From NCBI GenBank assembly GCA_032622095.1, contig CP136064.1, forward strand, positions 250,544,484-250,608,483: a DNA stretch of 64,000 nucleotides, read 5' to 3'. The DNA comes from Siphonodentalium dalli. Lineage: Eukaryota; Mollusca; Scaphopoda; Gadilida; Siphonodentaliidae. Shown one piece after another: positions 46,265 to 49,379 of the stretch. Position 1 is the stretch's first letter. Each line of letters begins with the position of its first letter. Made by a program: the position numbers and the translations under genes. The notes beneath the pieces were generated by a model. The model was not told where the DNA came from and ran no database searches. It was given only the letters and a program-made list of their open reading frames with translations.

Positions 46265-46868
46265 TATATACACATTTGAGATAATGGACCACATAGTGTT
46301 GTAATCGCCAAGGGATGATTTGTTTGGGGAAAGAGGGACACTACAATGGCCAAAGTATATGACAGCACCTGTTAAATTCACCTGTTATCGATTAATACAG
46401 GCTGATTAGGGCGCCTCTCCCGGATAGCTTTCGGATTTGTGATGGTTAGATTTGTTACATTATACAACATTTATTGGTATATTTTGTGAATAAATGGTAT
46501 TCATGGCATTTATACGTGGACTTACATACACAAACATTATGACAGACCAATGGAATAATAGGGAACTGTGATATGAAAAATAATTTCTCAATATACTGAA
46601 ACATGTTTGTTCTGTATGCGCAATGTGCCAATTATGATCAATTATGAAGATTATTAATTGTTATTATAACATTTTTTTTTAAATTTAAATGTCTTTATTA
46701 ATTCCTCAGATATATAAGTCACGTTTTTGCATAGCCCATACTAGTACACACCCACGTGGCATGGATAAGGGCGTTCTTTTTGTCTGATATAAAAGGATTA
46801 TTATATATTGTACAGATGTTGTTCCATAACGCCCTTCTTTGTAATAGGGTGGTCTGCTCTACGTCATT
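46265..46868. repeat. 600-base direct repeat, left copy flanking a LINE
   Basis: From TATATACACATTTGAGATAA to GGTCTGCTCTACGTCATT this segment recurs at 48776-49379 at a constant offset of 2511 bases, with no difference I could find by reading. It stops exactly where LINE sequence starts. Confidence 0.95.
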
Positions 46869-46895
46869 CAGAAGCTTAGGTCAAGCTATTTTGCT

Positions 46896-47897
46896 ATGTC
46901 CAACATCGGTATGTATGCTGGAGGTATAACACCAGTCAGCAGTAGGACAATCTATACATCTATAATATTGCCAAAAGGTCTCTTTGGATGCGAACTGCTA
47001 TGTGGCTTGACCGATTCAGATGTATTATCCCTGGAAAGAACTCACCGATTTTGCCTTAAAAAGATCCAAGGTTTGCATTCCAAAACACGGACCAACATTG
47101 TAGAAGGGTTGCTGGGAATAGGAAATATTCACAGTTTTATTGAAAAAAAGAAGCTTCTCTTCTTCGGAAGTCTATGCGCCCTCACAACTGAGAAGGCAGC
47201 CAAATCGGTTTTCTTATTAAGGCTGCACTCGTTCTTCATAGATGGGGTTTCGGGAAAATCCTTCATTTCCGATATTGCAAATATTCTGGGTAACCACCAG
47301 TTGATGTCGTATTTTACAAATTATGTTTCTGAAAGTGAATTCCCAACAAAGTCGTCATGGAAAAGTATAGTGCGCAAGGCAATATCTGAATATTCAGAAC
47401 ACGGATGGAAAAGCGCGGTGATCGGTGACAAATCACTCAGTCGCTTTCATGTTATACACCCACAGTTATCAGTCTCCCATTTGTGGCGTTGCTGTCGAAA
47501 GTTCCCTAGACACAAAATGGCATACCTGACTGTGGCCGGTATCATGGCTTGTACTGAGTCCGTGTTTGTAACTTGCAACAAATGTGGTGTTGCTTACGAT
47601 GATCTCCCTCAACACGTCATCATTAACTGCCCCGCCATTGCGGAATATCGAAACGACATATGGTATGAGTTAATGAACCAGTTCAATATTCAATGTATTC
47701 TCAAACTAGACAGCCTTTGCCCAGATGTACAATTGAATGTATTTCTCACTGCACGTCCACCGGAGTTATTTGATTTAATTGATGAAGCTGACTTATTCAC
47801 AGACTTTGTAGTATGCAGTACGTATTGTTTGTGGAAAGCTTATACCACGCAATCTCAAATATTACCGACATGCAGTGATGATAGTAATAATTCATGA
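46896..47897 (+). CDS. LINE polyprotein C-terminal region
   Basis: A 333-codon frame, opening within the element rather than at a genuine start, aligns along its length with the last third of the reverse-transcriptase protein at 61297-63416. Shared blocks are AGGITPxSS, IYxSxxLPxGLxGxExLCGL, SHLWRCCRKFP/SFLWKVCQKYP and a C-x2-C-x9-H-x4-C knuckle (CNKCGVAYDDLPQHVIINC here, CLLCARSYIDLPQHIIAVC there). The catalytic reverse transcriptase lies upstream of the truncation point and is absent. No independent function is expected. ATG 46896 is simply the first in-frame methionine. Confidence 0.85.
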   Translation: MSNIGMYAGGITPVSSRTIYTSIILPKGLFGCELLCGLTDSDVLSLERTHRFCLKKIQGLHSKTRTNIVEGLLGIGNIHSFIEKKKLLFFGSLCALTTEKAAKSVFLLRLHSFFIDGVSGKSFISDIANILGNHQLMSYFTNYVSESEFPTKSSWKSIVRKAISEYSEHGWKSAVIGDKSLSRFHVIHPQLSVSHLWRCCRKFPRHKMAYLTVAGIMACTESVFVTCNKCGVAYDDLPQHVIINCPAIAEYRNDIWYELMNQFNIQCILKLDSLCPDVQLNVFLTARPPELFDLIDEADLFTDFVVCSTYCLWKAYTTQSQILPTCSDDSNNS

Positions 47898-48019
47898 ATA
47901 TTATCAATGAGGACGCCGATAAAACGTCGGTAACTGATGTACATGCTCTATTTCACATCCGCATGAACACATGTTTGTGTATATTTATATATGTTGACCC
48001 GTATATAGAGTCGGTTTGA

Positions 48020-48540
48020 ATGATCAGGTTAGCATATAACGAATGATGTATGTCCGTCGTGTGTGAGTATATGTGTGTATGCATATATGTAAGGGTGTAT
48101 TTGTATGTGTATAAGTATGTGAATGCATGTGCGTGCATACGTGTGTGGTGTTTCTATATATATATATATATATATATATATATATATATATATATATATA
48201 TATATATATATATATGTATATATATATATATGTATATATATATATATATATATATATATATATATATATATATATATATATATATATATATATATATATA
48301 TATATATATATGTATGTGTGTGTGTGTGTATGTATGTATATATATGTGTATATGTGTGTGTATGTGTATGTGTGTATATGTGTATGTATGTGTATATATA
48401 TGTATATGTATATATATATATATATGTGTGTGTGTGTGTGTGTATATGTGTATGTATGTGTATGTATGTATGTAATTGTGTATGTGTGTTTATATGTATG
48501 TATATGCGTATATATGTATGCATATGTGTAGTTAAGTATG
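48020..48540. repeat. (TA)n and (TATG)n microsatellite in the LINE 3' region
   Basis: Nearly pure (TA)n from 48155 to 48310, then TATG/TGTA variants. Open frames here on both strands (up to 176 codons of Tyr/Ile/Thr/His) are artefacts. Confidence 0.95.
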
Positions 48541-48775
48541 TAAGTTAGGGCCATCCTGTATGTGCGCCCGTGTTGTTTGTAACTGCACGTGGACGTTTAG
48601 TCTGCGAGACTACACAGGTGTTCTGTTTGTGTTGTATCCATTTGTTAAAAAGTTTATGTGCTTTTCATGTCAATTCTCTTTTGTCAAACAATGTATGCAT
48701 ATATATATGTAACCTGTAATTATGTTATTACTGCTCTCCGAAATTGGAGGAAATAAAGGTATATATATATATATA

Positions 48776-49379
48776 TATATACACATTTGAGATAATGGAC
48801 CACATAGTGTTGTAATCGCCAAGGGATGATTTGTTTGGGGAAAGAGGGACACTACAATGGCCAAAGTATATGACAGCACCTGTTAAATTCACCTGTTATC
48901 GATTAATACAGGCTGATTAGGGCGCCTCTCCCGGATAGCTTTCGGATTTGTGATGGTTAGATTTGTTACATTATACAACATTTATTGGTATATTTTGTGA
49001 ATAAATGGTATTCATGGCATTTATACGTGGACTTACATACACAAACATTATGACAGACCAATGGAATAATAGGGAACTGTGATATGAAAAATAATTTCTC
49101 AATATACTGAAACATGTTTGTTCTGTATGCGCAATGTGCCAATTATGATCAATTATGAAGATTATTAATTGTTATTATAACATTTTTTTTTAAATTTAAA
49201 TGTCTTTATTAATTCCTCAGATATATAAGTCACGTTTTTGCATAGCCCATACTAGTACACACCCACGTGGCATGGATAAGGGCGTTCTTTTTGTCTGATA
49301 TAAAAGGATTATTATATATTGTACAGATGTTGTTCCATAACGCCCTTCTTTGTAATAGGGTGGTCTGCTCTACGTCATT
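48776..49379. repeat. 600-base direct repeat, right copy flanking a LINE
   Basis: Second copy of 46265-46868, beginning directly after the LINE (TA)n tail and ending at CTACGTCATT before TGAAAATTG. Confidence 0.95.

Follow-up and report, generated by a model that had tools for sequence, protein, structure and literature searches.

A LINE at positions 46869-48775 of the window, the whole 64,000-nucleotide stretch analyzed here (C4:250544484-250608483), is probably a recent insertion by target-primed reverse transcription (TPRT) that duplicated 598-604 bp of its target site (a target-site duplication, TSD), and its LINE lineage appears to leave long TSDs habitually in this genome; we give this reading a probability of about 0.83. 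An ordinary TPRT insertion leaves a short TSD of about 5-20 bp. Copies of the family described here (family 1) instead give repeats of 246-1912 bp or none that was found.

Structure of the insertion

The plus-strand segments 46265-46868 and 48776-49379 match exactly over 604 bp at a constant offset of 2511, with 0 differences, as a preliminary description of the window had noted, and no extension is possible on either side. The left copy starts with TATATA (46265-46270), which also ends the tail of the LINE, and the right copy follows directly after that tail, which is the layout of TPRT. Because these first 6 bp of the repeat are indistinguishable from the (TA)n tail, the duplication measures 598-604 bp. 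TATATA is also the putative site of the first nick, on the minus strand, and of priming.

The interval between the repeats (46869-48775, plus strand) is one 5'-truncated family-1 LINE, in agreement with the same description, and consists of the end of ORF2, a 3'UTR and the terminus GGAGGAAATAAAGG(TA)n. The ORF2 part (46869-47897, plus strand), made up of 342 C-terminal codons and the stop, is an open frame that matches in sequence the C-terminal part of ORF2 (1195 codons) in the genomic copy L012, and a Pfam search with this fragment alone gave no match. A TA/TG microsatellite in the 3'UTR (48150-48500, plus strand) differs in length between copies, so that the spacing from the coding part to the 3' end varies, and the 3' end GGAGGAAATAAAGG with its (TA)n tail (48746-48781, plus strand) overlaps the start of the right TSD copy. 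The LINE is hosted by an older dispersed repeat (45904-50155) with a left edge near 45900 and an extent to at least 50155.

Identity of the LINE family

A search of the genome (2.23 Gb in nine contigs) yielded 40 scored family-1 copies, the window's and 39 others, from 1254 first-look candidates. Copies in 20 fetched regions are 98.85-100% identical over a 1132-bp test stretch and share a common 3' end, with variable 5' truncation that falls mostly at each copy's own point. The longest copies (L012, L017, and L022) and also L013 have an open ORF2 of 1195 codons, which in L012 contains a predicted reverse transcriptase domain (PF00078, E 3.7e-29) and an apurinic-type endonuclease domain (PF03372, E 6e-13; PF14529, E 1.4e-6) and matches solved L1 and R2 proteins in sequence. 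Upstream of it, where an ORF1 would be expected, L012 has an open reading frame at least 414 codons long, without a Pfam match. Judged by these predicted domains, family 1 is an APE-type non-LTR retrotransposon (LINE). An LTR element was considered and rejected: terminal repeats homologous between family copies were not seen, the repeats of eight copies being dissimilar host DNA that is different in every copy. Among these eight repeats nothing similar at 75% identity or above was found, in a comparison in which L020 and L026 ran off the locus, their full lengths being measured afterwards.

Long duplications across family 1

The preliminary description had proposed a genome search for further copies with measurement of their flanks, and had taken short duplications in all other family members as evidence against its reading. 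The search was run, and its outcome was different: 7 of the 17 other informative copies have direct repeats of 246-1912 bp, bounded by the (TA)n tail and by the point at which that copy is truncated 5', and none was found in the other 10. The repeats, given by the length of the left copy, measure 246 bp in L016 (0 mismatches), 620 bp in L021 (0 mismatches, one gap), 899 bp in L018 (1 mismatch), 1184 bp in L024 (12 mismatches, three gaps), 1680 bp in L023 (9 mismatches, two gaps), 1879 bp in L026 (0 mismatches, one gap), and about 1912 bp in L020 (31 mismatches, three gaps, with a frayed end). With the window copy included, the median is about 1040 bp. The window copy and these seven have terminal direct repeats arranged as in TPRT. 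Chance repeats were rejected as an explanation, since in 8 of 18 tested copies (window included) the 5' flank has a stretch of 100 bp or more in common with the 3' flank of the same copy at 95% identity or higher, whereas the flanks of different copies match at this threshold in 0 of 306 pairs.

The sample covers 23 of the 39 other scored copies, picked by score order and not by chance, with 16 not fetched. Six of the 23 were left out of the 17 informative copies: L012, where the 5' end was not reached; L017 and L022, both unreadable within a 701-bp satellite; the first copy in L019, with its 5' end beyond the locus; the first copy in L023, a tandem duplicate of the second and counted once with it; and the copy at C8:37781214, where the LINE extends past the fetched sequence. 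L017 and L022 (C4:20.85 and 20.92 Mb) share about 6.4 kb upstream, which suggests one insertion multiplied with its surroundings.

In the 10 copies without a long repeat, 2.5-13.8 kb of upstream sequence was covered, and a wider search for L009 and L027 gave only opposite-strand matches of 77-87%, distant from the joint. No clear ordinary short TSD was seen in these ten copies, of which L010 has a tail that could hide a few bp. Decay of old TSDs was considered as an explanation for the repeat-less copies and rejected, since LINE divergence is no different between the groups (P 1.0); the divergence value of L025 is an artefact of gap-free comparison across an indel. Divergence between repeats does not significantly track divergence of the LINE (rho 0.42, p 0.31, n 8). 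The 3' flank of L025 had no second match among 40 scored of 426 candidates, and a query joining both of its flanks found no place with the two together. Separately, L025 contains a 314-bp direct repeat (7190-7503 and 9588-9901, 100%) that reaches the locus end and brackets 2084 bp resembling none of the LINE families of this analysis, and L036 contains a 430-bp direct repeat (3712-4140 and 5052-5481, 98%) around 911 bp.

A sister family with long repeats

A second LINE family is present in the window at 60776-63418 (minus strand, 5' edge approximate), within a GAT-type microsatellite that leaves its own TSD unreadable. Its ORF2 is 43.6% identical to that of family 1 at the amino acid level over 681 positions, and 40 scored copies, the window's included, are 99-100% identical over 1411 bp; with so many near-identical copies, the window copy is probably very recent. 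Probes of 601 bp from behind the tail were taken at the three best-scoring loci, not at random (3 of the 39 other scored copies), and all three answered with long repeats, of about 350, about 592, and at least 991 bp. The L040 probe recurs upstream in its first 350 bp only, at 100%. The L042 probe occurs three times in steps of 5365 bp, the last match ending at 591, which gives a repeat of about 592 bp, and was not found in full elsewhere among 40 scored of 1278 candidates. Similarly, the L041 probe recurs at 100% 7818 bp upstream (other scored places reach at most 99%), and since a second matched stretch lies at the same 7818-bp offset, this repeat is at least 991 bp long.

Origin of the duplication

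The 604-bp segment is part of the older dispersed repeat, and this makes an empty-site comparison possible. A search with it gave 383 first-look candidates, of which 40 were scored. Two of the 40 scored matches are the window locus itself, and 38 lie elsewhere at 92-99%. In three paralogous repeats (L031-L033, at 98.1, 94.9, and 95.9%), the left flank, one segment and the right flank align without a break and without a LINE. By these alignments, the single-segment form is the form seen without the LINE, and the duplication therefore arrived with the insertion. The earlier suggestion of an extreme target-site duplication is supported by these sites and by the same architecture in sister copies.

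Two other origins had been put forward with that suggestion. Had the 604-bp segment already stood in tandem before a LINE landed at the joint, as a tandem duplication of 2.86 kb elsewhere in the window (52196-58420) might encourage one to think, the paralogous sites would not be expected to hold the segment once, as all three do, and the same coincidence would be needed at eleven places, always at the LINE's own truncation point; this order of events is contradicted by the paralogous sites and deserves practically no credence. An assembly or haplotype-merging artefact is very improbable. It could account for two window copies with zero differences, but the same error would be needed at ten other loci, across two families, each time with edges that coincide with the ends of the LINE, and several repeat pairs have accumulated differences of their own (1, 9, 12, and 31 mismatches), so they do not represent one copied segment.

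The units of the 2.86-kb tandem duplication are 98.4% alike, and the first unit holds an insert of about 505 bp with TTAA ends and inverted TTAAAGGYACG termini, a MITE with further copies at 41024-41529 and 59763-60267, which we take to be piggyBac-like. A 2.7-kb direct repeat at 52845-58420 was considered as a second giant TSD and rejected, as it is this tandem duplication with the MITE in one unit. The window also contains a tandem array of about 2.8 kb with a period of about 54 bp (19551-22382).

Proposed mechanism and cause

Of the seven target sites that can be read, six have a C before an AT-rich, (T)ATA-like start, which makes the first nick look specific. The simplest reading of the locus is that the second-strand break was uncoupled from this nick. 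The element's endonuclease would make this nick in the minus strand, at a C|(T)ATA-like sequence, and the RNA would pair there through its (UA)n end and be copied. The plus strand would be severed, by a cut or a break, at a distance of hundreds to about 1900 bp downstream, not 5-20 bp away; the long overhang would then be filled in, and joining of the cDNA end would need no microhomology. The duplication could come from a distant second cut or from resection with fill-in.

Microhomology-led joining had seemed favored by an apparent excess at first inspection, which was absent from a controlled count: the mean at the 5' joint is 0.86 in seven copies (L020 omitted for its frayed repeat end), against 0.86 in mismatched pairs and 0.71 at random (P 0.38), and the joints consequently point to no single joining route. 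This count also bears on a scheme in which the cDNA anneals by its 3' end to the opposite strand of the target, hundreds of bases off, and is extended back across the target, the resulting bulge being fixed by replication with no distant second cut. Such annealing would yield both long duplications and copies without them, and would make a second nuclease unneeded, but it predicts microhomology at the 5' joint, where none above controls was found in the seven copies, and we regard it as improbable.

The cause of the uncoupled break may lie in the element or in the host. A host-wide condition would mean weak placement of the second break in the germline, as in NER-deficient human cells, so that any LINE leaves long TSDs. 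In such cells the TSDs of L1 are reported to have a median of 1495 bp, compared with 14 bp in cells complemented with XPD, and for long TSDs in XPA-, XPC- or XPD-deficient cells the authors propose a distal unrelated nick (PMC5223499); the former length resembles the 246-1912 bp found here, and the trait is common to two LINE families that are only 43.6% identical. Gross loss of XPA or XPC was rejected on predicted domains, with one XPA_C match in the genome (E 3e-19) and two Rad4/XPC matches over the cut-off, although weak or silent repair remains compatible with their presence. In addition, a related LINE 3' end in L028 is without a duplicated flank. This third, undated LINE, with the similar terminus GGAGGAAATAAAGAAATATATA, ends near position 4209 of that locus, about 195 bp upstream of a family-1 copy, and the neighboring sequence holds no duplicate of its 192-bp 3' flank. 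TSD length also depends, according to a published report, on which LINE species is at work (PMC4245944), and for this reason we lean slightly towards a property of the element, a host-wide condition being the rather unlikely alternative.

The long repeats also have consequences after insertion. L023 (C9:176756800-176766700) has the order repeat-LINE-repeat-LINE-repeat, both LINEs having the same 5' cut and 6 mismatches in their first 1900 bp, and L042 of the sister family forms an array of the same order; unequal recombination between long repeats accounts for both. Recombination within one element would delete the LINE and restore the empty site. On balance we favor a LINE lineage with a naturally uncoupled second-strand step, in which an insertion duplicates hundreds to thousands of base pairs or none, and the host-derived repeats serve as makeshift LTRs that permit arrays and, in principle, traceless removal. 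Such a lineage would be a continual source of kilobase segmental duplications, invisible to surveys that take only short TSDs. The insertions seen here already amount to exon-scale duplication of host DNA by retrotransposition. Of all the steps of LINE insertion, cutting of the second target strand is understood least. A natural LINE in which this step is seemingly uncoupled, and which has young, near-identical copies and an ORF2 open over 1195 codons, lends itself to direct comparison with short-TSD LINEs. If the element is the cause, this would point to a missing coupling activity, and if the host is, to a difference in germline repair.

Comparison with known systems

LTR retrotransposons have direct repeats at both ends. 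The insertions described here act like them afterwards, since with direct end repeats unequal recombination can build arrays and could, in principle, remove the element cleanly. They differ in the repeats themselves, which here are host DNA and unlike in every copy.

Among LINEs, RTE and Bov-B elements are likewise target-primed, and RTE also has simple-repeat ends, but the TSDs reported for natural copies are short, with lengths of 6-12 bp and a single case of 20 bp, or an upper limit near 20 bp (PMC2887409; PMC13295347). Surveys have accepted only TSDs of limited length, of 5-30 bp for L1 in the human genome (PMC2912911) and 10-49 bp for Bov-B (PMC13295347), and would miss long TSDs by design. 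Rare long TSDs are reported from repair-proficient cells and represent the same product, for example one of 1228 bp, although at lower frequency: 1 of 25 for ZfL2-2 in wild-type DT40 (PMC2666801), and at most 10% above 100 bp for L1 in HeLa, as told in two accounts (PMC5223499; PMC2912911), against 7 of 17 other family-1 copies and all three family-2 probes here. At the level of titles and abstract beginnings in the open-access literature, no description of natural LINEs with kilobase-long TSDs was found, and the descriptions of a comparable pattern that were found concern laboratory cells in which DNA repair is defective. A close likeness is to L1 in NER-deficient human cells, with TPRT-like insertions and TSDs of hundreds to thousands of base pairs (PMC5223499). 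Those insertions came from an engineered element in cultured cells, whereas the copies described here are natural, belong to another LINE with a (TA)n tail, and reside in a genome with predicted XPA and Rad4 domains.
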